Below are positions 10,310 to 29,275 of a DNA stretch of 34,114 nt, in pieces. The stretch is from positions 1-34,114 of the forward strand of contig CANLLM010000022.1 in NCBI GenBank assembly GCA_947491825.1, written 5' to 3'. Within the stretch, counting starts at the first letter, position 1. Each line of letters opens with the position of its first letter. The translations under genes were made by a program, and so were the position numbers. This stretch comes from Bacteroidota bacterium (GTDB lineage Bacteria > Bacteroidota > Bacteroidia > UKL13-3). The notes beneath the pieces were generated by a model. The model was not told the DNA's origin, ran no database searches, and was given only the letters and a program-made list of their open reading frames with translations.

Positions 10310-10820
10310 GTGAATAAACTTTAGGAAAGCAAAGTTCTACTTTTACCCGAATTAATCAATAAAAACCCTACATGCTCTGCTCAATTGATACCATTGATTG
10401 ACAAAAACCACATTGGAAAATGATATTTCTATCAAGAAATTATTTATTAACCAGATGTAACCCTATATTTAAATCTATTAAAAGCTAAATATTAATTAGG
10501 CTGAATTTACAACTTTAATTAGTAACAGTTGACAGGTAGTTAACACCATTCTTATTCGAAAGAAACGGTGTAGTATGTTGATTTTATGATAGGTAAAGTT
10601 GTGGTATTTTTTGTGGTTTACTCTTCTTAAATAAACAATCAACCTAACTTTACACCTATTGGATGTGAGCAATACAATTTTAGTAACAATTTCTAACCAA
10701 GGACGTGCTACATATCCCTAAAAAATTAAGCGATTGGTTTTACACCCAGATTAACCATAAGAAAATTTGCTGAATAGCTGTAAATAGTGCAAATTGCAGA
10801 CGCATTTTTACAATACACTG
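10310..10820. other. 511-bp intergenic region between divergent genes
   Basis: No convincing gene. It must hold promoters for the minus-strand persulfide dioxygenase gene (an ACTTTGC element on the minus strand near 10329-10335) and for pyrH (TTTG at 10766-10769, about 20 bases before a weak -7-like element at 10790-10796). A hairpin with ACACC (10543-10547) and GGTGT (10567-10571) arms lies mid-region without a T run. Short peptides in two frames around 10665-10780 look like chance or relics. Confidence 0.5.
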
Positions 10821-11528
10821 ATGAAATACAAAAGAGTTCTTCTCAAGTTAAGTGGCGAGTCGCTAATGGGTTCGTTGCAATATGGTATTGACCCAAAAAT
10901 TTTAGAAAAATACGCTGCCGACATTAAACAAGTGATTGACCAAGGCGTACAAGTTGCCATTGTTATTGGCGGGGGTAATATTTTTAGAGGAGTACAAGGT
11001 GTTTCGGGAGGCATTGTTGATAGGGCACAAGGCGATTACATGGGCATGCTAGCAACAGTTATAAATGCGATGGCTTTACAAGGTGCATTGGAAAAAGCAG
11101 GTATTAAAACCCGTTTACAAAGTGCCATTAAAATGGAGCAAATTTGTGAACCATTTATTCGCAGACGTGCCATGCGTCATTTGGAAAAAGGACGTGTTGT
11201 AATATTCGGAGCGGGAACAGGTAATCCGTACTTTACTACAGATACAGCGGCAAGTTTACGTGCAGTGGAAATTGAAGCGAACCTGGTATTAAAAGGTACT
11301 CGTGTTGATGGTATTTATACTGCCGACCCAGAAAAAGATGCCAATGCAACTCGATACGAGCAAGTAAGTTATAGTGAGGTGTATGAAAAAGGCTTAAACG
11401 TAATGGACTTAACAGCAATTACGTTATGCCAAGAAAATAAATTGCCTATTGTGGTGTTTGACATGAACAAAGATGGTAACTTTTTAAGAGTTTGTGCAGG
11501 CGAAGGTGTAGGTACATTAGTAAGCTAA
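10821..11528 (+). CDS. pyrH: UMP kinase
   Basis: Bacterial UMP kinase of the amino-acid-kinase fold; it phosphorylates UMP to UDP in pyrimidine nucleotide synthesis. The ATG at 10821 gives 235 residues beginning [17 protein letters not shown], the standard N-terminus. A TTG nine codons upstream is open but adds non-homologous residues. Visible landmarks are the KLSGE phosphate-binding motif, [45 protein letters not shown] and [15 protein letters not shown]. frr follows after 24 bases, a widely conserved pair in bacteria. Confidence 0.96.
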
Positions 11529-11552: not shown

Positions 11553-12119
11553 ATGAGCGATCCACGTTTAAAACAAGTACTTGACCAATTAAAAGATGCC
11601 ATGGATAAAGCAATTGACCATGCAGCGAATGAGTTTAGTAAAATACGTGCTGGTAAGGCACACCCAAGCATGCTTGATGCAGTAAAGGTTGATTACTATG
11701 GAAGTTTAGTTCCTTTAAGTCAGGTGGCTAACGTAAACACGCCTGATGCTAAAACCTTAGCTATTCAGCCATGGGAAAAAAGCATGTTACAAGCAATAGA
11801 AAAGGGTATTATTATTTCTAACTTAGGTTTTAATCCGAGCAATGATGGTACCATGATTCGTTGTATTTTACCGCCATTAACCGAAGAACGCAGAAAAGAA
11901 ATTGTGAAAAAGGTAAAAGGCGAAGCAGAAAATGCCAAAATCACAGGACGTACCTTGCGTAAAGATGCGAACGAAAATATTAAGCGTTTACAAAAAGACG
12001 GTTTACCTGAAGATGAAGCTAAAGGAGGAGAAACCCAAGTGCAAAAAATAACCGATGCTTACATCAAAAAAATTGACGAATTAACTGCAGCAAAAGAAGC
12101 AGAGGTAATGCACGTTTAA
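11553..12119 (+). CDS. frr: Ribosome recycling factor
   Basis: 188 residues, usual length about 185. With EF-G it splits post-termination ribosomes. It shows the standard pattern: a three-helix bundle with FSKIRAGKAHPSMLDAVKVDYYG near the N-terminus, the IQPWEKSMLQAIEKGI hinge, and PPLTEERRKEIVKKVKGEAE followed by the long C-terminal helix. Co-transcribed with pyrH; a further gene starts about 42 bases downstream. Confidence 0.97.
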   Translation: MSDPRLKQVLDQLKDAMDKAIDHAANEFSKIRAGKAHPSMLDAVKVDYYGSLVPLSQVANVNTPDAKTLAIQPWEKSMLQAIEKGIIISNLGFNPSNDGTMIRCILPPLTEERRKEIVKKVKGEAENAKITGRTLRKDANENIKRLQKDGLPEDEAKGGETQVQKITDAYIKKIDELTAAKEAEVMHV

Positions 12120-12161: not shown

Positions 12162-14192
12162 TTGCATCTGGTGATTAATTTACATCGCATAAAATATATT
12201 TTTATAACACTGGTTAAAATAATCAGTGTTTTTTTATTATTGGCCATTGTTGCCTTTTTTAGCTTTAGAAATATGCTTTTGCAAAAAGCCATTGCTAAGA
12301 TTAGCAGCAAACTTAAAAACGATTACTCAGCTATATTTGCGGTACAAGAAGCAAATTTTACAGGTATTGCAAGTGTAAAACTTAGTGGCGTAAGCTTAGT
12401 TCCTTTTAATCATGATAGTATTTTACGTGTAGCTAATATTGAAACGGGAATAAAAATTGGTTATGCATTGTTTTTAGATTTTAGGCTTGATAATTTAAAA
12501 ATTGATGATGGTTTTGTAAACCTGGTTAGTGATGAACGAGGCCGAAATTTTGATGCCTTTTTACAGAATAAAGATAAGTCAGAAAGTACCCCGTCAGAAA
12601 CCAAGACGACTTCACGTAACCTGGCTAAAACGGCATATAAACTTATTAGCAGGGTTCTTAATTTTATACCTAGTGATGTGAGCATAAATCATGTTGCTTT
12701 AAATATCATTGACCATAAACAGCATGTTGCTTTTAGCATGCAACAAATGATATTGGATAATGAGCAGTTGGAATCGGTTATAAATGTAAGTAGCTTTAAA
12801 GATACCTTGATAACGGAAAACTTTAAACAAAGCTGGCATATAAAAGGCACTGCCAACCCACAACAAAAGAAAGTTGATGTGCAGTTTTTTAATACCGATA
12901 CAGGCCATGTACAAATGCCCTACTTACAAGATAAATTTAACTTAGTTGCAGGCTTTGATAGCATCAGGTTAAAGTTAGATGGAGTTGATTTGGACAATGA
13001 TGAGTTGAACATAAAAGGGTTAGTAAGCACCACAAATTTTATTGTTAATCATCCAAAAATATCGAGCAAAGATGTGGTGATTGAAAAAGCTGAGTTTGAT
13101 TATGTATTTGTTGTGGGTAGCAATTTTATTTCATTGGATAGCACTTCAACAATACAATTTAACAAGGTAAATTTTCATCCATTTATTAAATATCAGCGTG
13201 GCCCTGATACCACTTATCAGGTTAATGTAATCATTGAAAAAACATCAGCTCAAGATTTTATAAGCTCATTACCAGAGGGATTATTTACCCATTTTAAAGG
13301 TATGGAGGCAGAGGGAACATTTAGCTATCGTTTAGACTTTTTATATAACGAAAATAAACCACGTGATTTAATTTTTGACAGCCGTCTAGAAAAGGATGGC
13401 TTACGTATAACAAAATATGGTGAAGCAAACTTAAGCAAGTTGAATGGTGATTTTATTTATCAAGCTCTAGAAAAAGGTAGGGTACAACGTAATATTGATG
13501 TGAGTTATGACAACCCAAATTTTGTACCACTAGACCAAATATCGCCATTATTAAAAAAAGCCGTTTTAACTACCGAAGACCCTTCGTTTTTTTACCACCG
13601 TGGCTTTATTGATGAAGCATTTCGTCAATCAATTATTAAAAATATACGCAAACGCAAGTTCGTAAGGGGAGCAAGTACCATAAGCATGCAGTTAGTAAAA
13701 AATGTATTTCTAACTCGTGAAAAAACATTGTCTCGTAAGTTAGAAGAAATTTTATTGGTGTATATACTAGAGAACAATCGCCTTAGCAGCAAAGAGCGCA
13801 TGTTTGAGGTGTATTTGAATATTATTGAGTGGGGGCCGAATATATATGGCGTTGGAGAAGCAGCCAAATTTTATTTTGGCAAATCCCCTTCAGAGTTAAC
13901 CCTTAGCGAGGCCATGTATTTAGCTATTATTATACCTAGTCCTAAAAAGTTTATGTGGCGCTTTGGAAAAGATGGCCAACTAAAAGACCATGTTGGAAAA
14001 CACTTTCAATCGCTGGCAGGGCTTATGATTAGAAGAAACGTATTGATGCAGGAAGATACCATGGGTCTGACACATCGCATCAATATAAGTGGCCCGGCAA
14101 AAGGATTTATAAAAATTACTACTGATACATTGGTGAACGATACGTTAATTATAGATGAAAACGGATTAATTATTCAAGGAGACGAAGAATAA
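12162..14192 (+). CDS. AsmA-like/GT51 peptidoglycan transglycosylase
   Basis: 676-residue inner-membrane protein. One N-terminal transmembrane helix (about residues 12-36) precedes a long beta-rich periplasmic region (about 40-435) resembling AsmA-type proteins (LSGVSLVPF, DNLKIDDGFVNL). A C-terminal GT51 domain (about 450-640) has all main motifs: TTEDPSFFYHRGF with the catalytic glutamate, RGASTISMQLVKNVFLT, KTLSRKLEEILL, and YLNIIEWGPNIYGVGEAAKFYFGK. No transpeptidase domain is present, so it should polymerise lipid II glycan strands only. No ATG is available before the membrane helix. TTG 12162, just after an A-rich stretch, is used here; GTG 12171 is nearly as likely. It sits between frr and a DUF2079 gene. 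Confidence 0.88.
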   Translation: MHLVINLHRIKYIFITLVKIISVFLLLAIVAFFSFRNMLLQKAIAKISSKLKNDYSAIFAVQEANFTGIASVKLSGVSLVPFNHDSILRVANIETGIKIGYALFLDFRLDNLKIDDGFVNLVSDERGRNFDAFLQNKDKSESTPSETKTTSRNLAKTAYKLISRVLNFIPSDVSINHVALNIIDHKQHVAFSMQQMILDNEQLESVINVSSFKDTLITENFKQSWHIKGTANPQQKKVDVQFFNTDTGHVQMPYLQDKFNLVAGFDSIRLKLDGVDLDNDELNIKGLVSTTNFIVNHPKISSKDVVIEKAEFDYVFVVGSNFISLDSTSTIQFNKVNFHPFIKYQRGPDTTYQVNVIIEKTSAQDFISSLPEGLFTHFKGMEAEGTFSYRLDFLYNENKPRDLIFDSRLEKDGLRITKYGEANLSKLNGDFIYQALEKGRVQRNIDVSYDNPNFVPLDQISPLLKKAVLTTEDPSFFYHRGFIDEAFRQSIIKNIRKRKFVRGASTISMQLVKNVFLTREKTLSRKLEEILLVYILENNRLSSKERMFEVYLNIIEWGPNIYGVGEAAKFYFGKSPSELTLSEAMYLAIIIPSPKKFMWRFGKDGQLKDHVGKHFQSLAGLMIRRNVLMQEDTMGLTHRINISGPAKGFIKITTDTLVNDTLIIDENGLIIQGDEE

Positions 14193-14203
14193 ACTAACTT
14201 GAT

Positions 14204-15685
14204 ATGTTGCAACAATACACTACCAAACAAAAACTGAGTATCTACATTATTGTAAGTTTGTTTGCGTTAATTTTTTGTAGCCTATCGTTGGTAAATCATT
14301 ACTTGTTTAGAACCTACGCTTTTGATTTGGGCATTTACAACAACATGTTGTATTCCTACTCTCATTTTAAATTAAATTATACTACACTACAACAACCTTT
14401 GGTTTATCATGCCTTTGCCGATCATTTTGAACCAGTATTCTTTTTATTTACTCCTTTCTATTGGATTTTTGGAAGCTATACGCTACTCATCATACAAATT
14501 ATTTTAGTAATATTTGGTGGCATTGGTGCCATGCGATTTACACAATTACACAGCAGTAACAATGTATTATCTATAGCCATACTTATTCAGTTTTATACCA
14601 TTTGGGGAGTATACTCTGCTTTGGCATTCGATTTTCACAACAACATAACTGCTGCCATGTTGGTACCATGGGTAATGGTGTTTGCACAACAGAGAAAATT
14701 CAAGTCACTACTTTTATGTTGGGCACTCATATTATTGAGTAAAGAAAATATGGCCTTGTATGGCATATTTGTATGTTTGGGGTTGGCTTTGCATTATTTT
14801 AAAGATAAACCCCTGCGCAATTTATTCTTGCTATTAACAGCCGCATCAGTAGTATATTTTGTTTTGGTAGTTAAAGTGTTTATCCCATCGTTTCAACAAC
14901 CCGGTGCAGGCTATTTATACGATAGCATGTACAGGTCATTAGGCACTACACCTAAAGAAATATTAGGTAACATATTTAATAAGCCTGGATACCTATTTAG
15001 TTTATTGTTTGAAAACTATTCGGGTGAAGCTTTATTTAATGGCATTAAATCTGAACTACATTTTTCGGTATTGATTAGCGGTGGTATTTTCATGTTGTAC
15101 AAACCACAATTTTTGGTGATGTTGATTCCGATTTATGCGCAAAAGCTATTTAATACAGATGCCGCGCGTTGGGGAATTAATTATCACTATAGTATTGAAT
15201 TTGTTCCTGTAATAGCCGCTTGTACAGCAGTATTTATTTCATCACTTAATACTGCAGAAAAATATAAATATTATTTGGGTTTTGTTGTAGCATTATGCAC
15301 ATCTTATTTCACCATAAGCAAAATGGATAGCCGTGTTTCTATTTGGTATGATAAGATAAATACACGCTTCTACACCGCTGATCATTACAACAATAATAAT
15401 ACGGTAAAAACAATTAGAACTGAACTGCACGCGTTACCAATTGAAATTGATGATGCCATCAGTGCTCAGAATAATTTAGTACCACATTTGGCCAACAGAA
15501 ACTACATATACTTATATCCAGAGAGCGGCAAAGCCAGCTATATAATATTAGCTCCAAAAACCAATTTATATCCTTTAAAAGATTCGGCATACGCAAGTAT
15601 ATTTGACACCCTTAAAGTCAGTAAATCATGGCAAAACGTTACACCAAATAACAAAGAGGTTTTCTTGTTTAAGCGCACTCAATAA
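14204..15685 (+). CDS. DUF2079 multi-pass membrane protein (GT-C-like)
   Basis: 493 residues with about nine or more hydrophobic helices. DUF2079 hallmarks are visible: AFDLGIYNNMLYS after the first helix, HAFADHFEPVFFLFTPFYWIF, ALAFDFHNNITAAML and a SKENMALYG segment. DUF2079 proteins resemble GT-C glycosyltransferases that use polyprenyl-linked sugars, but the substrate is unknown. The gene is 11 bases after the GT51 gene and probably ends the pyrH operon. Its stop codon abuts the stop codon of a minus-strand membrane protein with no base between. Confidence 0.87.
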   Translation: MLQQYTTKQKLSIYIIVSLFALIFCSLSLVNHYLFRTYAFDLGIYNNMLYSYSHFKLNYTTLQQPLVYHAFADHFEPVFFLFTPFYWIFGSYTLLIIQIILVIFGGIGAMRFTQLHSSNNVLSIAILIQFYTIWGVYSALAFDFHNNITAAMLVPWVMVFAQQRKFKSLLLCWALILLSKENMALYGIFVCLGLALHYFKDKPLRNLFLLLTAASVVYFVLVVKVFIPSFQQPGAGYLYDSMYRSLGTTPKEILGNIFNKPGYLFSLLFENYSGEALFNGIKSELHFSVLISGGIFMLYKPQFLVMLIPIYAQKLFNTDAARWGINYHYSIEFVPVIAACTAVFISSLNTAEKYKYYLGFVVALCTSYFTISKMDSRVSIWYDKINTRFYTADHYNNNNTVKTIRTELHALPIEIDDAISAQNNLVPHLANRNYIYLYPESGKASYIILAPKTNLYPLKDSAYASIFDTLKVSKSWQNVTPNNKEVFLFKRTQ

Positions 15686-16966
15686 TTAGCCAACCCAATT
15701 ACCAGAAATGAAATAGTGAAATAGGAAACCTTGTAATAATATTCCAGAGAAACAAGTTACATTATTTACTATTTTATAAAATTTAGTAGTATTTGGCAAG
15801 GTTAAGAATACCGTTGTAGTGGTAAGTGTTATTGCCAATACCATCAAAAATTTATGTTCAATATGAGAATGTGAAATTGTGAAACTAAGCATAACAGCCA
15901 AACCTAATAATATTATAGGTTTTACTTTAATTTGTATTTTTTTAATACTTAATAAATGTAATAGTATCAAATAAAATGGCGTAGATAGCACATATCGGTT
16001 TATACTTGCCAAACTCTCTTGTTGATACAATAAGATAAATAAAGTCCCCCCAGATAAGTATAATAATGCGAATAAATCAGCATTGCTAAAGTTACCCTCA
16101 ATAATAAAAATTCTAGACAATGGATTTGACCATTTAAATTTATTACATAGTATATTCAAGAAGTAGGTAACCAAAATTAGCTTACAAAATATCCCGATTA
16201 ACAGTGCAAAATTTTCTGTTAATGCAACAGGCTTATGCCAACTGATATGCACCAGTTTTGGCCAACGCAAGTGGTGGTCCCAATATTGGTGTGCTTCAAA
16301 AAAACCAAAGAACCTATCTGTTTGTTGATATTGATACGCAAAAACCATGACGTTTACTAAGAATACAGTCAACATAGTAAAAAGTATTATTTTTATTTCG
16401 TGCCATTTTTTTTGCTGCATAAATGCCAACAGCAAAATTACCACGAAGGATAATAAGAATATCATTGAAGCAGATCGAGTTCCTATAGCAATTAAAGCGC
16501 CTATAACTAAGTACAAATAATTATTTTTATTAAAGCCTAGCATAATAAGTACAGAACCCAAAAAGAAAAAACTTTCGGTATAAGGAATCATAAAAAAGAA
16601 ACTTAAGCCAACTGCCATAAAAACTATTATTGTTTTTGTTGCAATATGGTAATGGATTGCAAGAAAGAATGTGGCCAATGTAAAAACACAATAATTAACT
16701 ATTCCTATACCAATATTTCCAACACTTAATAGCTTCCATACCAGAGGAAACAAAGGAAAAAATGCAAGATTATTTTGTTGACCTGCTTTATAAATATAAC
16801 CATGCTCACGCATCCCATTGTACCAACCACAATCCCAAATACACCATTTACTCGAATCAGGAAAAACATTATACTGGTGATAAAATAATACAAAAGTAAT
16901 GGCTATTAAAACCAGAGGCATAAACAACAACGTAAGTATAAGAAGTACATTCTTATGTTTAAACAT
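15686..16966 (-). CDS. PIG-V/GT-C-like membrane glycosyltransferase
   Basis: 426 residues with about ten transmembrane helices. After the first helix comes a luminal-type loop with WCIWDCGWYNGMREHGY (D45, WY at 48-49) and then NNLAFFPLFPLVWKLL. This D-x(2)-WY...GY...aFFPLFP pattern is that of PIG-V-like mannosyltransferases and related GT-C proteins. The substrate and lipid donor cannot be told. It starts 6 bases after the mutL stop, so it is probably translated from the mutL transcript. It is convergent with the DUF2079 gene. Confidence 0.8.
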   Translation of the reverse strand: MFKHKNVLLILTLLFMPLVLIAITFVLFYHQYNVFPDSSKWCIWDCGWYNGMREHGYIYKAGQQNNLAFFPLFPLVWKLLSVGNIGIGIVNYCVFTLATFFLAIHYHIATKTIIVFMAVGLSFFFMIPYTESFFFLGSVLIMLGFNKNNYLYLVIGALIAIGTRSASMIFLLSFVVILLLAFMQQKKWHEIKIILFTMLTVFLVNVMVFAYQYQQTDRFFGFFEAHQYWDHHLRWPKLVHISWHKPVALTENFALLIGIFCKLILVTYFLNILCNKFKWSNPLSRIFIIEGNFSNADLFALLYLSGGTLFILLYQQESLASINRYVLSTPFYLILLHLLSIKKIQIKVKPIILLGLAVMLSFTISHSHIEHKFLMVLAITLTTTTVFLTLPNTTKFYKIVNNVTCFSGILLQGFLFHYFISGNWVG

Positions 16967-18837: not shown

Positions 18838-18956
18838 CGAAACAAAATGCAGTGTTAATATGTACGTATAAAACTTAGTTTGTAAAAGCATTAAAACCAC
18901 ATGAATTTTAACGTTTTTTGTCGTTGATAGTAGTAGGCTATTATTTAGCAGAAAAC

Positions 18957-21863
18957 ATGAATAGAACTATAATTTTACTTTGTACCACCTTGTTACCCAT
19001 TTTTGGTTGGGCGCAAAACGGTATAATAAACTGGACTAAAAGTAATCCTTGGGTTGATTCAGTATATAATACATTAACCGATGACGAACGCATTGCACAA
19101 CTTTTTATGGTTGATGCATGGACCATGCGCGATACGGCCCATTTCAATGATATAGAAGCATTGGTGCGTGATTATAAAATTGGTGGATTGATTTTTTTTA
19201 AAGGAACTCCATACAAACAAGCCACACTAACTAACAATTTCCAGAGTAAAAGTAAAGTCCCATTATTGGTTGGTATTGATGGAGAATGGGGATTAAGTAT
19301 GCGTTTAGATAGCACCCCTGTTTATCCCCGTCAGATGGTTTTAGGTGCAAGTGCAAATCCTGATTTAGTTTACGAAATGGGATTAAGTATTGGTTCACAA
19401 TGCAAGCGTATGGGCATACATTTTAACTTTGCACCTGATGTTGATGTGAACAATAATGCCAATAATCCAGTAATAAACGATCGCTCATTTGGTGAGAATA
19501 AATATACCGTAGCCAAACTTGGTGCCGCGTATGCCAAGGGTTTACAACACATGCACATCATTGCTTCAGCAAAACATTTTCCAGGACATGGTGATACTGA
19601 AACAGATTCTCATTATGGCTTACCTGTTATTAAAGCCAACAGAAAACGTTTAGACTCTTTAGAACTATATCCTTTTAAAAAGTTGATAGACGAAAACGTA
19701 ATGAGTGTAATGGTCGCACATTTAAATATACCTGCACTTGATACAAGCAATACGCCTTCATCATTATCAAAAACAATTATTACCGACTTGCTTAGAAATG
19801 AAATGGGGTTTGAAGGCATTATTATTACCGATGCATTAAACATGAAAGGTGTAGCAGATTTATACCCTCCTGGCGAGGTTGCCGCACGTGCATTATTGGC
19901 AGGAAATGATATTTTATTATTTGTAGAGAATGTGCCTGAAAGTATGAGTAAAATAAAAGCGCATTTACTGGATAGTTCTTTAACCTGGGCACAAATTGAA
20001 AAAAGTTGTAGGCGTGTGTTAATGGCAAAATATTGGGCAGGATTAAACAAATACGAGCCAATTGAATTAACCAACTTAACAGCAGACTTAAACTCTGGTG
20101 ATGCGCCTGAGATTATCAAAAAGGCTATCAAAAACAGCATAATTGTTGCGAAAAATTCGGATGATATTATCCCAATTAAAAATCCTGAATTGTATAAAAT
20201 TGCTACAGTCGGTGTAGGTATTCAGCAACTTACAGCCTTTCAGGAAATGTGTTTAAACTATTGCAAAAGTGATTATTTTAGTATTGATAAAACAGACAAG
20301 AGTACAAATTTCGACAGCTTATATTTAGCACTAGAAAAATACAACTTGGTTATTGTAAGTATACACTCAACAAGCAGATTTGTAAGCAAAAAATTAGGCC
20401 TTACTCAACCACAAATAGATTTTATAAACCGAATCATTCAATCGCAGCGCAAAGTAATATTGGTTTGTAATGGCAATCCTTACATCCTAAATAATTTTCA
20501 AAACGCACGCAATGTAATTGTATCTTATGAAGATTTAGAATTATACAACCAATTGGCAGCACAAGTGTTGTTTGGCGGGATAGCCGCCAAAGGCCGCATG
20601 CCTGTTAGTTCGGGTGATGCTTTTCCATTAGGAAGCGGTATCACAACCACCGCGTTGGATAGATTTAGCTATCTTTTACCAGAAGAAGCAGATTTAAATA
20701 GTGATGCGTTAGATAAGTTAGACAGTATCGCTAAGCAAGCCATATCAAAAGGGGCTACTCCAGGATGTCAGATATTGGTGGCTAAGCAAGGTAAAGTTAT
20801 TTATCAGAAATCATTTGGTTCTCACACATACGATAATATTTCTGCTGTAAAAAACCATCACCTATATGATGTAGCATCATTAACAAAAGTATTGGCCACC
20901 ACACTTGCAGTGATGCATTTGTATGATCAACATAAAATAAAACTAGAGGAAAAATTAAGTACTTACTTACCTATGTTGAATGGCACCAATAAAGATGAAA
21001 TTACGGTGTATGATGTGTTGCTTCATCAAGCAGGATTACTGGCCTATATACCCATTTATAAAGGCACATTGATAAATGGCAAACCTAATCCCATTATCTA
21101 TCAAACCACAAACGATAGCATATACAATAAACAGGTAGCGCCAAATTTATTTATGCATAATGATTATGAGCAATTTGTTTGGGATGCCATTTTAAAAAGT
21201 GAAGTGAAGCCTAAAGGCAACTATGTTTATTCTGATATTGGTTTTATCTTGTTGCGTAAAGCCATAGAAAACATCACACAAACACCGATCGATTCGTTTC
21301 TAAACGAACACGTATACAAGCCACTTAATTTAGCCAACCTAACATTTAACCCAATAAATAAAATAAATGCTGATTGGGTTATACCTACAGAGATGGATAC
21401 TTTTTTTAGGTGGCAATTGGTTACTGGTACAGTGCATGATCAAACAGCTGCTATGCTGGGAGGAATTAGCGGACATGCTGGATTATTTGCAAGTTCAAAT
21501 GATGTGGCTGTAATTATGCAAATGTTATTAAATGGGGGTGAATATGGAGGTAAGCGAATTTTAAAAGAAAGTACCATCAACTACTTTACCAAAAAGCATG
21601 GCAAATCGCGCAGGGGGCTGGGTTTCGACAAACCCGAAACAGATTTTAAAAAAGCCAGCCCTACCAGTAAGCAATGCTCTCCATATACATTTGGACATAC
21701 TGGTTTTACGGGGACTTGTGCCTGGGTTGACCCCAAATCTAAACTAGTATTTGTGTTCCTATCTAATCGTGTTCACCCCTCACCAGAAAACAAAAAGCTG
21801 ATTGAGATGAATGTAAGAACAAACTTACAAGATGCCATTTACGAAGCATTTATCTTTGATTAA
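18957..21863 (+). CDS. Exported GH3 glycosidase fused to beta-lactamase-fold domain
   Basis: 968 residues from ATG 18957, which begins a clean signal peptide (MNRTIILLCTTLLPIFGWAQ); the open frame extends upstream only from a TTG. Residues about 35-370 are a GH3 beta-N-acetylhexosaminidase-like barrel with KHFPGHGDTETDSHYGLP (K205 region) and IITDALNMKG (nucleophile about D291). A GH3 C-terminal alpha/beta domain extends to about 575. Residues about 600-960 are a class C beta-lactamase/esterase-like serine hydrolase with SLTK (S641, K644), YSD (Y758) and HTG (H914). Probably periplasmic, acting on amino-sugar glycans such as peptidoglycan or chitin fragments. Combinations of these domains occur in Bacteroidota. 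Divergent from mutL. Confidence 0.92.
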   Translation: MNRTIILLCTTLLPIFGWAQNGIINWTKSNPWVDSVYNTLTDDERIAQLFMVDAWTMRDTAHFNDIEALVRDYKIGGLIFFKGTPYKQATLTNNFQSKSKVPLLVGIDGEWGLSMRLDSTPVYPRQMVLGASANPDLVYEMGLSIGSQCKRMGIHFNFAPDVDVNNNANNPVINDRSFGENKYTVAKLGAAYAKGLQHMHIIASAKHFPGHGDTETDSHYGLPVIKANRKRLDSLELYPFKKLIDENVMSVMVAHLNIPALDTSNTPSSLSKTIITDLLRNEMGFEGIIITDALNMKGVADLYPPGEVAARALLAGNDILLFVENVPESMSKIKAHLLDSSLTWAQIEKSCRRVLMAKYWAGLNKYEPIELTNLTADLNSGDAPEIIKKAIKNSIIVAKNSDDIIPIKNPELYKIATVGVGIQQLTAFQEMCLNYCKSDYFSIDKTDKSTNFDSLYLALEKYNLVIVSIHSTSRFVSKKLGLTQPQIDFINRIIQSQRKVILVCNGNPYILNNFQNARNVIVSYEDLELYNQLAAQVLFGGIAAKGRMPVSSGDAFPLGSGITTTALDRFSYLLPEEADLNSDALDKLDSIAKQAISKGATPGCQILVAKQGKVIYQKSFGSHTYDNISAVKNHHLYDVASLTKVLATTLAVMHLYDQHKIKLEEKLSTYLPMLNGTNKDEITVYDVLLHQAGLLAYIPIYKGTLINGKPNPIIYQTTNDSIYNKQVAPNLFMHNDYEQFVWDAILKSEVKPKGNYVYSDIGFILLRKAIENITQTPIDSFLNEHVYKPLNLANLTFNPINKINADWVIPTEMDTFFRWQLVTGTVHDQTAAMLGGISGHAGLFASSNDVAVIMQMLLNGGEYGGKRILKESTINYFTKKHGKSRRGLGFDKPETDFKKASPTSKQCSPYTFGHTGFTGTCAWVDPKSKLVFVFLSNRVHPSPENKKLIEMNVRTNLQDAIYEAFIFD

Positions 21864-24379: not shown

Positions 24380-27300
24380 ATGAATAAACCAATTACTATA
24401 TTTAAAAGAGTTTCGCTGCTACTTTTACTAACACTAGCGATGGTACTGAGTAACTCTTCTACATATGCATCCCACGTGGTTGGAGGCGATGTAGAGTATG
24501 AATGCACAGGGCCGCGCATTTGGAAAATGAGGTTAACCATTTTTCGTTACTGTAATGGTGCATCCCTATGTTCAAATATGGGCTGTACTGCTCCCATGAC
24601 AGCGAGACCAAATACAACACTAAATCCAGCAGGTTGTGTTGCTAACCCAAACAACGTGCCTTTAACTTTATCATTGGTAAAGGTTGAAGACATTGGTAAG
24701 GCAAACGTGGCGTTATGCGGTAATTTAGCAAAAAATGGATGTAATAACCTTGGGCAAGTTACAGGAGGTCCTTATAACCCCTCCATAGAAAAATACGTAT
24801 TTGAGGGCACTTTAAACTTAAGTATGGCCTCACTAAACAATAGCAACTGCGCTTATTGGGATGTGTTTTGGGAACTTTGCTGCCGCAATGATAACATTTG
24901 GAACTTAGCAGGATCTAGTGGGCAATCATTTAGAATTGGAGCAACCATTAATATATTTAATCGTTCACAAAACCCTTGCAAAAATAATTCTCCTATCTTC
25001 AAAGAGGAGCCTGTTGCCACCTTATGCTCTGGTCAAGAATATGTATTTAACATGGGGGCAATAGATGCTGATGATGATTCCTTAACTTATGAAATATCAC
25101 CCTCTATACAACAAGGAGGTGGCCTAGTAAATTACCAACCACCAGGCAGTGCCAATTACCCTTTCCCCCTAAATTCTACGAAACCTCCGCATATTAATTT
25201 CCCACAACCAAATGGACCATACGTAGTTATTGATTCGGTGAATGGAGACATCAGCTTAAACGCCTTAAATAATACAACAGGTTATATATACGGAAACCTA
25301 AATGTGCGAGTCAAGCAATGGTCCTATGATGCAAATGGGGTTCCCGTTTTAGTTGGTATTACACAGCGAGATTTACAGCTTTATGTATTTAATTGCCCAG
25401 GCAATAATCCGCCACGCATAGCCACACTTCCGTCTGGGCCAAACAATAAACCCATTTATGATTATGCGATATGCGCAGGCGAACAGCTTTGCTTTACCGT
25501 AATTGCCAAAGATACGGATGTTTACCCACTCCTTCCGAGGTATGATACCACTTTTATGTCGTGGAACCAAGGTATAGTTAGACCAGGTAAGTTAACATTT
25601 CAACCTACCTACCCAGTTGGGGCAGGCCTGCCAAGACCTAGAGAAGACTCTTGGCAATTTTGTTGGCAAACAGAAGAAAGTGATGGAAGAACGCTTCCTT
25701 ACTATTTTACGGTAACGGGTGCTGATAAATTCTGTCCAAATGTTGGTCGCGTAACACGTTCTTTTAGTATTCGTGTTTTACCAACCCCAAAAGCAGATGG
25801 TGTAAAACTAGATTTATATTGTGGAAAATGGGTTTACAGGGCTCGAAAAACGGAAGTTAAACAAACGTTCGCTTCGGCTTCAATGAAAATTGCCATTAAT
25901 CCCTACGATTATAATTTTTCTGGAGGATTCAGATCAATTCCACTAAAAGCACTTAATCCTGGCCCTAACCCTACAGGACCAATAACTGATCCTAGGCCAA
26001 TTATTATTGATACATTTACCTACACAAAGGGGGGTAAATATTTAGTACAGTACATTGTCTCTACGCCAGGATATACACCAGGCCAGTTTTGCACAAAAGT
26101 ATATACAGATACCATCACTGTAGATACGCCTGTGGTTGTAAATGTTAAAGACACTTTTACTTGCAAAGGCACTGTGATTAATTTAAAATCAGAGGGTAAA
26201 TTCGGTGTGGCTCCATACACATATACTTGGTATCGCAATGCCCGAACAAACGCACCTGTAAAAGGACCGATACAAAACAATGGTAACAACTACGATGCGC
26301 CCGACACTTCAAATACTAAATACATAGTAGAAATACGAGACTTAAGGGGCTGTAAATACTATGATAGTACTGTTTTAGAAATCAAACAACTCCCTATACC
26401 TTTATTTAGCCCTGATACAGCGCGTATATGCGCAGGTCAATCATTTACGCTTAATGCAGGGAATAATAATGGCAACGTTGCTTCTTACACCTGGTTTAAA
26501 AACAACAGTTTGGAAGCCAATGATTCTGTACAATCTATTGTTAAGAAAGATTCTGGAACATATGTGCTACTTATGGTTGATACATTTGGTTGTAGGAAGC
26601 GCGATACATTTAATTTACGTGTTAATCTACCAATCGTTGTCAATGCAGGATCTGATACTTCTGTATGTCCGAAAGATACTGTTGGCCTTTTAGCAAGAGG
26701 GGGGTATAAGTATAAATGGGATAGAATTGTAGGCCCAACTTTGGTTAATGTGCAAGCCAAAGGCTATTCATCCAACTATAGAGCATCGCCTAATATTACT
26801 ACAGATTATGTGGTAACCGCGTATTATTCTTTTCCAGATACTGCCTCAAGTTACTTAGAGTGTAGCAACACCGATACGGTTCGGGTTATAGCAAGGCCGT
26901 TACCAAATTTATCGCCAACACAACCGCAAAATCTCTGCAGAAGCGAACGAGAATTGGTATTGCCATTTAGATTAGTAACACCTGCTAACCAACAAGGTGG
27001 TATTGGCGGATGGGCATTTAATAATGCTCCAGGAGCATTATCTATTACAGGCAATACTACTATGCTAATTGTAGATAGCTTACCTAACTTACCACAAGAT
27101 ACTTTTTACGCTACCATGCAAACTCAAATTACTGGTGCAAGTAAAAATTATTACCTCAAATACGCATACCGAGGTCCAGCTGATCAAGGTGCCTGTTTAA
27201 GAGAAGACTCCACTTTAATTCGTGTATTTTCTCTACCTAAAACATCGGCAGGTTCTGATACATCTGTATGTATTAATAAGGTAGGTACTTACTCTTTAAA

Positions 27301-29275
27301 ATTTGCAAATCATAAGCATAATCCACAAGATCCTTCAGGTAAAGTTGGTATTTGGTCTATTTCGCAAGGTGCGGGTCTTGTTACCACGGTTGAAAATGCA
27401 AACACAACCAGCTTCTCATACGATCAAAGATTATCAGGCGTTAACTTAGCCCCGACACCCAATGTTTTAAGATATACTTACACCATTAACTATACTTTAC
27501 CTGCACCTTCAACCGGACTAAAAAGTTGCGTAAATGTAGATTCAATGAATATGTTAGTTGTTCCTACACCTATAGTTGATGCTGGTTTAGACTTTGCTGT
27601 TTGTAAAAACGAACCAATTTTTCCAATAGCATTATATTCAGGTGCTACAACAAATTCTACCATACCAGGTTCTACTTATTGGAGCTTTGCACCAGGACAA
27701 CTTCCGAATAGTATGAATAATGCCATTGTAAGTAAACTTAATTTTGATGCGCAAAATCCTATAGTGCCACTTAATGGTGGCATTTGGAAATTATATTACA
27801 CAGATGATGCAACGGGTTGTGCTGCTCGCGATAGTGCTAATATGGAAATCATTAAACTACCTGACGTAGATATTACCTATGCAATTGCAGGAACGAATGA
27901 TTCTATTTGTAAAACAGCTTCAAGCATCCAATTTACAGGAACAGCTACCCCTGTTGGAGGAGTTGGCCTATTTTCTGGAGTTGGGGTTTCAGCAACAGGT
28001 CTATTTAATGTACAAGACCCATTAGTTATTCCACAAAATAGTTATACAGCTTACTATAACTACTCGATAACAAAATTAAGTACTACCTGTACAGGATATG
28101 ATTCTATCATAACTTTTGTGCAACAACCACCATCATTATCATTAGACAATGTTTTGCCAAAATGCGATTATGATACTATTCCATTTGATCTATTTGCTAA
28201 TGTTTCTCCTGTATTTTATGGATTAAAATGGACACACGATGGAACAGGTACTTATGATGATGATGCTTCGTTAACACCAAAATACAAGTTTACAAAACCG
28301 GGCGATTCAGATAAGCAATTTGTAATAGCAACTGCAAGTACTACCAACAACGGGGTATGCGCTGCAACTACAGCAAATGTGCATTTAGATATTAATCCTG
28401 AACCAAATCCTAAATATACCTGTGATAGTTGTGTAGGTTGTGCTCCTCAAACTTCATACCTTGCGGCAGAAGGCGCTGGTGTGGGAAATAGTACATACAA
28501 CTGGTACCTAATTAACGGAACAAGCGAAACCCAGTTTGCTCCAGGAGATTCGGCTATTATCAGTACACTTGCTACATATGGCAAAAGAGTAATTAAGCTA
28601 AAAGTAGTAACACCAGCTGGTTGTATTTCAGCGTATATTGATAGTATTACCGTATATGATGTTCCTCAAGCATCTTTTTATACCAATCCACAGAGGACAA
28701 CTATTGCTAAGCCAGAGTTTGATTTTTTCAATACTTCTACTTTAGCCGATAACCAAACCATGAAATACAGATGGAATTTTGGACCAGACCCACAATACAC
28801 CGGATCAGGTAAAGGGCCAGACAGAATTCTTAACGAAAAAGATCCTCAAAACATTGCTTTTGATACAGTGTCTTGCGATATCCCAACATACTTAACTGTT
28901 ACCACTATGCCTGGTGGATGTATTGATGAAGCAATAAGAACAGTTTGTATCGAACCTGATATTACCGTATTTATTCCATCCGCATTTAGACCAGTGTTTG
29001 GTGCCAACTCTAATCCATGTGTAGATCCAACCTTCCCAGAATGTAATGATAAATTCCGCGTATATGCTGCAGGATTTAAAACAATAGAAGTCTATGTTTT
29101 TAATCGCTGGGGACAACAAGTGTTCTCGACCTTGGATCCAGATATTGGATGGAATGGTTTGGTAAATAATTCAGGTGCAGAGTGCCCGCAAGATGTATAC
29201 ATTTACCAAATAAATGCTACAAGCTTTAACGGAAAAAAATACACCTATTCAGGATCTATTACATTATTGAGATAA
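24380..29275 (+). CDS. Large secreted surface protein, T9SS type B sorting domain, PKD-like modules
   Basis: 1631 residues. A signal peptide (to about residue 31, ending SSTYAS) is followed by HVVGGDVEYECTGPRIWKM, a segment common at the N-terminus of large Bacteroidota gliding or adhesion-type proteins. Residues about 32-470 hold Cys-rich, Ig/cadherin-like domains. From about 590 to 1420 come repeated modules, three of them opening with an AG-x-D-x2-VC motif (about residues 755, 956 and 1064). A PKD-like domain starts about 1428 (PQASFYTNP, YRWNFG). The last 100 residues are the gliding-motility/T9SS type B domain: FIPSAFRPVFG, VYVFNRWGQQVF, GWNGLVNNSG, DVYIYQINA and SGSITLL. It should be exported through Sec and then T9SS to the surface or medium. 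Ligand unknown. Transcribed alone. Confidence 0.93.
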   Translation: MNKPITIFKRVSLLLLLTLAMVLSNSSTYASHVVGGDVEYECTGPRIWKMRLTIFRYCNGASLCSNMGCTAPMTARPNTTLNPAGCVANPNNVPLTLSLVKVEDIGKANVALCGNLAKNGCNNLGQVTGGPYNPSIEKYVFEGTLNLSMASLNNSNCAYWDVFWELCCRNDNIWNLAGSSGQSFRIGATINIFNRSQNPCKNNSPIFKEEPVATLCSGQEYVFNMGAIDADDDSLTYEISPSIQQGGGLVNYQPPGSANYPFPLNSTKPPHINFPQPNGPYVVIDSVNGDISLNALNNTTGYIYGNLNVRVKQWSYDANGVPVLVGITQRDLQLYVFNCPGNNPPRIATLPSGPNNKPIYDYAICAGEQLCFTVIAKDTDVYPLLPRYDTTFMSWNQGIVRPGKLTFQPTYPVGAGLPRPREDSWQFCWQTEESDGRTLPYYFTVTGADKFCPNVGRVTRSFSIRVLPTPKADGVKLDLYCGKWVYRARKTEVKQTFASASMKIAINPYDYNFSGGFRSIPLKALNPGPNPTGPITDPRPIIIDTFTYTKGGKYLVQYIVSTPGYTPGQFCTKVYTDTITVDTPVVVNVKDTFTCKGTVINLKSEGKFGVAPYTYTWYRNARTNAPVKGPIQNNGNNYDAPDTSNTKYIVEIRDLRGCKYYDSTVLEIKQLPIPLFSPDTARICAGQSFTLNAGNNNGNVASYTWFKNNSLEANDSVQSIVKKDSGTYVLLMVDTFGCRKRDTFNLRVNLPIVVNAGSDTSVCPKDTVGLLARGGYKYKWDRIVGPTLVNVQAKGYSSNYRASPNITTDYVVTAYYSFPDTASSYLECSNTDTVRVIARPLPNLSPTQPQNLCRSERELVLPFRLVTPANQQGGIGGWAFNNAPGALSITGNTTMLIVDSLPNLPQDTFYATMQTQITGASKNYYLKYAYRGPADQGACLREDSTLIRVFSLPKTSAGSDTSVCINKVGTYSLKFANHKHNPQDPSGKVGIWSISQGAGLVTTVENANTTSFSYDQRLSGVNLAPTPNVLRYTYTINYTLPAPSTGLKSCVNVDSMNMLVVPTPIVDAGLDFAVCKNEPIFPIALYSGATTNSTIPGSTYWSFAPGQLPNSMNNAIVSKLNFDAQNPIVPLNGGIWKLYYTDDATGCAARDSANMEIIKLPDVDITYAIAGTNDSICKTASSIQFTGTATPVGGVGLFSGVGVSATGLFNVQDPLVIPQNSYTAYYNYSITKLSTTCTGYDSIITFVQQPPSLSLDNVLPKCDYDTIPFDLFANVSPVFYGLKWTHDGTGTYDDDASLTPKYKFTKPGDSDKQFVIATASTTNNGVCAATTANVHLDINPEPNPKYTCDSCVGCAPQTSYLAAEGAGVGNSTYNWYLINGTSETQFAPGDSAIISTLATYGKRVIKLKVVTPAGCISAYIDSITVYDVPQASFYTNPQRTTIAKPEFDFFNTSTLADNQTMKYRWNFGPDPQYTGSGKGPDRILNEKDPQNIAFDTVSCDIPTYLTVTTMPGGCIDEAIRTVCIEPDITVFIPSAFRPVFGANSNPCVDPTFPECNDKFRVYAAGFKTIEVYVFNRWGQQVFSTLDPDIGWNGLVNNSGAECPQDVYIYQINATSFNGKKYTYSGSITLLR

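Follow-up and report, generated by a model that had tools for sequence, protein, structure and literature searches.

Introduction

Ordinary GT51 peptidoglycan glycosyltransferases carry the catalytic domain close behind their membrane helix; since the substrate sits in the membrane, they are thought to act at its surface. LPD-3, a bridge-like lipid-transfer protein, is eukaryotic, as are Vps13 and Atg2; all three are much longer than the protein described below, and none is known to have a glycosyltransferase domain. The AsmA-like proteins of bacteria have been proposed to be phospholipid transporters, and the E. coli members consist of a chorein region of ca. 120 aa together with a further ca. 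425-1,125 aa, as given in PMC8593681, in whose naming the start of AsmA and TamB is the chorein-N region. Seven AsmA-like proteins have been counted in F. johnsoniae, a species in which gene deletions have been made (PMC12045153).

One gene of the window (the whole stretch of 34,114 nucleotides analysed here) encodes a protein in which features of these systems are combined. It is similar to MtgA in that it has a GT51 domain without a transpeptidase, in that TIGR02070 is its best NCBIfam model and in the E-x-G sequence at residues 556-558, although MtgA-like open frames are 233-307 aa in length without the long arm, and although the fusion scores under the TIGR02070 cut-off, falls into a separate clade and has M for Q in motif 2. 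It shares the GT51 fold and the catalytic motifs with class A penicillin-binding proteins, but it lacks a transpeptidase and its GT51 clade is apart from the long PBP-like frames. On the other side, the N-terminal hydrophobic helix, the chorein-N-like start, the predicted beta-groove and a weak profile homology are reminiscent of the AsmA/TamB/YhdP/YdbH clan (Pfam CL0401), whereas the fusion ends in a peptidoglycan glycosyltransferase and its arm is only about 400 aa. Vps13, Atg2 and LPD-3 match the predicted N-terminal arm at the level of structure.

No paper combining AsmA, GT51 and transglycosylase was found, and no AsmA-GT51 fusion is described among the literature matches listed, judged by title and the start of the abstract, with thin coverage of subscription journals. 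The accessible parts of PMC4494059, PMC12045153, PMC8824477, PMC8593681, PMC12419801 and PMC10900882 do not mention such a fusion, and the terms transglycosylase and Bacteroid are absent from Levine 2019 (PMC6791001). The gene has already been annotated by its GT51 domain in a public record, so that what may be new is that the arm has been recognised, and that the family forms a single clade with the distribution given below.

Gene and protein layout

The preliminary description of the window had placed here a fusion of an AsmA-like region with a GT51 transglycosylase. This architecture is confirmed, the open reading frame having exactly the boundaries 12162-14192 on the forward strand with a TTG start, the GT51 domain being present, and the arm being AsmA-like on family and structure-prediction grounds (Table 1). 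An in-frame GTG is an equally plausible start, and both are possible since the GTG lies in frame at 12171 and the alignments of the four closest named homologues begin at residues 1-4 of the fusion protein. The opposite strand of 12162-14192 contains no ORF of at least 100 aa. The protein begins with a hydrophobic helix, which is followed by about 390-400 residues of beta structure and then by GT51. In the AlphaFold secondary structure, a helix predicted at residues 2-55 encloses the hydrophobic stretch.

Table 1. Features of the fusion gene and its neighbours in the window
Feature	Position	Strand	Basis or remark
pyrH	10794-11528	+	named from sequence; the Pfam match is the general amino-acid-kinase model only
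frr	11553-12119	+	named from sequence
AsmA-like arm + GT51 peptidoglycan glycosyltransferase, complete gene	12162-14192	+	676 aa; TTG 12162 or GTG 12171
N-terminal hydrophobic stretch, residues 12-35, likely inner-membrane anchor	12195-12266	+	sequence reading
AsmA-like / chorein-N-like beta-groove region, residues 36-445	12267-13496	+	family profiles, structure prediction
Best-conserved arm stretch, residues 370-386	13269-13319	+	P371, G373, F375, G385 invariant in both alignments
GT51 transglycosylase domain, residues 448-598	13503-13955	+	PF00912
DUF2079 gene	14204-15685	+	Pfam

The GT51 domain and its active site

The GT51 domain is matched by PF00912 with E 6.9e-46 (156.3 bits against a cut-off of 27), and no Pfam transpeptidase model matches the fusion protein at E<=1. 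TIGR02070 (MtgA), the top NCBIfam model, gives 158.3 bits, which is under its equivalog cut-off of 182.65. The predicted C-terminal domain superimposes on PBP2 (3dwk; Z 17.9, 2.7 Å, 184 aligned) and on the Aquifex GT (3nb6; Z 17.6, 2.6 Å, 164 aligned). Residues E472, D473, T506, Q510, K513, N514, R525 and E529 are invariant in all 29 rows of alignment A1 and all 52 rows of alignment A2, which are overlapping sets. When the protein is aligned with the Aquifex enzyme, E472 and E529 fall opposite conserved glutamates, and presumably they occupy the positions of the catalytic glutamates of GT51. The earlier reading of this domain as apparently intact and unaccompanied by a transpeptidase thus holds on both counts. 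A degenerate GT51 domain was considered and rejected, all the counted motif residues being invariant.

Motif 2 departs from the canonical form. M509 replaces the first Q of the canonical QQ in every fusion row (29/29 and 52/52), whereas the equivalent position is Q in 8/8 MtgA-like and 15/16 PBP-like rows. This methionine is a mark of the fusion clade and could point to a change in how the substrate is handled. The glutamate of the E-x-G sequence is found in 8/8 MtgA-like rows vs 5/16 PBP-like ones.

The N-terminal arm

When this protein is scanned alone, no AsmA-type Pfam model gives a match, and Pfam yields, other than GT51, only a sub-threshold match to DUF7757 (E 0.019); the grounds for calling the arm AsmA-like are therefore the family and structure prediction. 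Among the 29 members of A1, DUF748 is matched at E<=1 by 17 (best 9.7e-8), AsmA by eight (best 4.6e-7) and the NCBIfam TamB model by four (best 2.7e-5). Ten members were also scanned singly: six match at E<=0.1 (DUF748 in four, AsmA in two), five of these six matches falling in the N-terminal part of the profile, while none of the ten is above the cut-off and four give nothing for DUF748 or AsmA at E<=0.1. A profile of residues 36-445 detects a 1465-aa ORF of the same genome over its first 100 positions with E 3.9e-9, computed for a search space of 1000; none of the 440 shuffled ORFs in the control does better than E 2.9. This ORF, which is TamB-like by size, itself matches the AsmA profile. 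The genome's two other AsmA-like ORFs (L172 and L173) are missed by the arm profile (E about 1 or worse), and the hhalign probabilities against it are 86 for the 1465-aa ORF and 3.4 and 0.8 for the two others. Since the profile match covers the first 100 positions of the 1465-aa ORF and five of the six single-member Pfam matches lie in the N-terminal part of the profile, the sequence homology of the arm is mainly with the start of AsmA/TamB. Sequence searches of the PDB gave no confident match for the arm. The mean column identity is 59% for the arm (alignment A3) vs 63% for the whole protein (A2), and within the arm conservation is highest at the stretch listed in Table 1, toward the GT51 junction.

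For the whole protein, AlphaFold2 with 52 rows gave pLDDT 81.6 and pTM 0.66; residues 1-445 alone reached pLDDT 86.1 and pTM 0.75. With the arm model, Foldseek returned a single match at E<=0.001, which is LPD-3 (2.7e-6), followed by apolipoprotein B (E 3.1e-3) and TamAB (E 8.1e-3). In VIA-align, the arm was superimposed on LPD-3 (Z 9.6, 7.8 Å), the N-terminus of Vps13 (Z 9.2, 4.9 Å, 175 aligned), Atg2 (Z 8.0, 5.7 Å, 123 aligned) and TamAB (Z 7.0, 5.3 Å), the sequence identity to LPD-3, Vps13 and Atg2 being 8-11%; Z alone is not decisive for the fold, because porins, at Z 10.1 and 8.4 Å, are level with the lipid-transfer proteins. A chorein-N/beta-groove fold is predicted from three things weighed together: the Foldseek result, the succession of a helix and then a sheet, and the homology seen in sequence. 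Structure prediction had been set as the refutation test for the proposed AsmA-like fold; the models did not refute it, and the family homology agrees with them.

In the single sequence, hydropathy does not alternate significantly along the strands (2/18 with p<0.05; mean p 0.44). The family-averaged hydropathy autocorrelation is -2.99 at lag 1 (-0.55 ± 0.42 in shuffles) and +1.60 at lag 2 (-0.55 ± 0.45 in shuffles), a strong family-level pattern, in keeping with strands that are greasy on one face, as a groove would require, and also compatible with a sandwich or a barrel. If the ~20 predicted strands make one continuous sheet at ~4.8 Å per strand, the length of the arm can be estimated at about 9-10 nm. 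On this model the arm is probably too short to span the periplasm, and would be long enough to lift the active site off the membrane or to reach the cell wall.

Distribution and phylogeny of the fusion

The survey covered Bacteroidota genomes and plasmid records, and the fusion family is seen in Bacteroidota. Within the class, 198 genomes (120 genera) were searched with the protein, and 45, including the window's own, gave a full-length match, 44 of them as one aligned piece and one as two, with one in-frame stop in two; eight further genomes have partial matches that extend past the GT51 domain. A profile search at E<=1e-60 across the phylum found the fusion in 34 of 296 genomes and 14 of 140 genera, of which 15 genomes belong to one genus and seven to other classes; 33 of the 34 matches span almost the whole model. 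The family is widespread but patchy within the phylum, as these proportions of genomes and genera indicate. Named carriers include many Flavobacterium species, one Lentimicrobium MAG and Parabacteroides distasonis, where a plasmid copy is annotated as 'biosynthetic peptidoglycan transglycosylase'. Among 520 plasmid records with a match, one has a single place covering 80% of the protein. Flavobacterium is a genus with laboratory genetics.

The length of the frames varies. In six genomes (G043, G082, G116, G147, G177 and G179) the match runs only from about residue 303-358 on, in frames of 567-612 aa, and these possibly have shorter or more diverged arms. Frames of 722-798 aa occur in G145, G114, G080, G040, G421, G188 and G433, where extensions at one end may exist.

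The GT51 domains were placed in a tree of 43 rows, consisting of 19 fusion rows (two of which are the same gene), eight MtgA-like and 16 PBP-like rows, with the groups named by open-frame length only. Thirteen of the fusion rows were picked from A1, and 7 of the 37 GT51 matches of fusion-bearing genomes have no locus and are absent from the tree. A single branch separates all the fusion domains from the rest (100/100), the MtgA-like branch has 99/96 and the PBP-like branch 98/88, and the stem branch of the fusion clade is long (1.35). Fusions and MtgA are drawn together, but a sister relationship was rejected: the tree is midpoint-rooted and comprises three groups without an outgroup, so that the nearest group to the fusions cannot be told from it. 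Each of the 11 fusion-bearing genomes that were examined carries one or more further GT51 genes in a long frame, and 8 of the 11 also have a short MtgA-like one; the two other GT51 genes of the present genome have open frames of 735 and 260 aa. The simplest reading of these sequences would be that the fusion arose once and has been retained beside the usual GT51 enzymes.

Possible function and alternative explanations

The protein is probably a GT51 peptidoglycan glycosyltransferase of the monofunctional kind, with its catalytic domain borne at the C-terminus of a short AsmA-like arm (chorein-N and beta-groove) that is anchored in the inner membrane; it would work as an accessory lipid II polymerase whose arm positions the enzyme and/or shields lipid. 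Lipid II would be polymerised on the periplasmic side, and the fusion enzyme would be accessory to the other GT51 enzymes of the cell. The arm might set the place of the enzyme in the envelope and/or shield the prenyl lipid on the substrate or on the product. In the fusion, ~400 residues separate the membrane helix from the GT51 domain, and two alternatives can be conceived for the encounter with substrate: the arm may fold back so that the GT51 domain touches the membrane, or lipid II may travel along the arm. The earlier proposal that lipid II handling or envelope position is coupled to glycan synthesis would fit the sequence data. A lipid-transfer-like fold between anchor and enzyme would mean a new placement of wall synthesis in the envelope, or lipid handling joined to it, and as the fusion is an AsmA-like member with a predicted chemical output, an enzyme assay could serve to probe what the fold does. 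It is unlikely, in our estimate, that the arm is a lipid conduit in the full sense, where lipid II or the undecaprenyl carrier would slide along the groove from the inner membrane to a GT51 site held off the membrane and glycan would be polymerised near the cell wall. If this were true, a peptidoglycan synthase and a bridge-like lipid-transfer module would be united in one chain.

The arm might instead be a mere spacer, or a platform on which a partner in the wall, the divisome or the outer membrane docks, with a groove that holds no lipid and a GT51 domain that acts at the membrane as MtgA does; we give this a modest chance. Conservation is lower in the arm than over the protein as a whole and peaks toward the junction with GT51, and the arm seems too short for the outer membrane, all of which would suit a spacer. 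The short AsmA-like protein PA2708 has likewise been argued to be too short to reach the outer membrane (PMC10900882). However, the strands are amphipathic on one face and the arm matches chorein-N lipid-transfer proteins, findings more in keeping with a groove than with an inert rod, although still compatible with the latter.

The GT51 domain might also have drifted to another polyprenyl-linked glycan or to a binding-only regulatory role, the protein being mainly an AsmA-like envelope-lipid factor. The long stem branch, the methionine of motif 2 in the whole clade and the bit score below the MtgA equivalog cut-off point in this direction, and the first two allow for an altered activity. Both catalytic glutamates and the other counted motif residues are nevertheless invariant, which argues against a dead enzyme, and such a drift is considered distinctly unlikely. 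It is highly improbable that the fusion is an artefact of assembly or gene calling, or that its N-terminal part is an unrelated beta domain. The source assembly consists of 148 contigs and is 88% complete, the single protein has no N-terminal Pfam match above cut-off, and porins equal the lipid-transfer proteins in Z; on the other hand, AsmA/TamB homology is detectable and the gene is annotated on the Parabacteroides plasmid. The artefact itself was rejected because the same single open frame recurs in many other genomes. The accessory polymerase with a positioning or shielding arm is the reading which we prefer.

Genomic neighbourhood

The fusion gene is separated by 42 bp from frr and by 11 bp from the DUF2079 gene. 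The preliminary description had given weight to these neighbours; the common strand and the short gaps of pyrH, frr and DUF2079 stand, but their functional weight is not supported, since among 80 named relatives, with loci covering up to 6 kb on each side and some incomplete, frr is nearby in 12, pyrH in seven and DUF2079 in five. A functional operon of pyrH, frr and DUF2079 was rejected on the same counts. Upstream of the fusion gene, Flavobacterium pectinovorum has other genes, RadA-like and PanC-like ones among them (identities by sequence reading), in the Flavobacterium locus a RadA-like gene is followed by the fusion gene, and in Parabacteroides the fusion gene adjoins other genes altogether. 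The arrangement is lineage-specific, and because it is local to close relatives, the neighbours say little about function. In one close relative, ~2.6 kb of extra DNA separates the fusion from DUF2079 (locus L035, 5145-7724).

Co-transcription with pyrH and frr, which had also been proposed, is not borne out by the signals in the region. Promoter-like sites number 22 vs 25.9 ± 5.3 in shuffles and are thus not in excess, and terminator-like sites are near chance (5 vs 3.5 ± 2.2). One terminator-like hairpin (12206-12230, + strand), with 11 pairs of which three are G-C and then a T run, is located just after frr and within the first codons of the fusion gene.

Three further genes of the window are mentioned here for their products. 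An apparent membrane protein of 426 aa is encoded on the reverse strand at 15686-16966, end to end with the DUF2079 gene; it has no Pfam match above cut-off, Wzy_C being under it at E 0.0015. A 1631-aa protein (24380-29275, + strand) has a CHU_C type IX secretion signal at its C-terminus and matches nothing else in Pfam at E<=0.001. A 981-aa protein (18918-21863, + strand), encoded a few genes from the GT51 fusion, combines a GH3 glycosidase (PF00933, E 1.1e-83) with a serine beta-lactamase-like domain (PF00144, E 1.6e-48) and is possibly a cell-wall recycling fusion.
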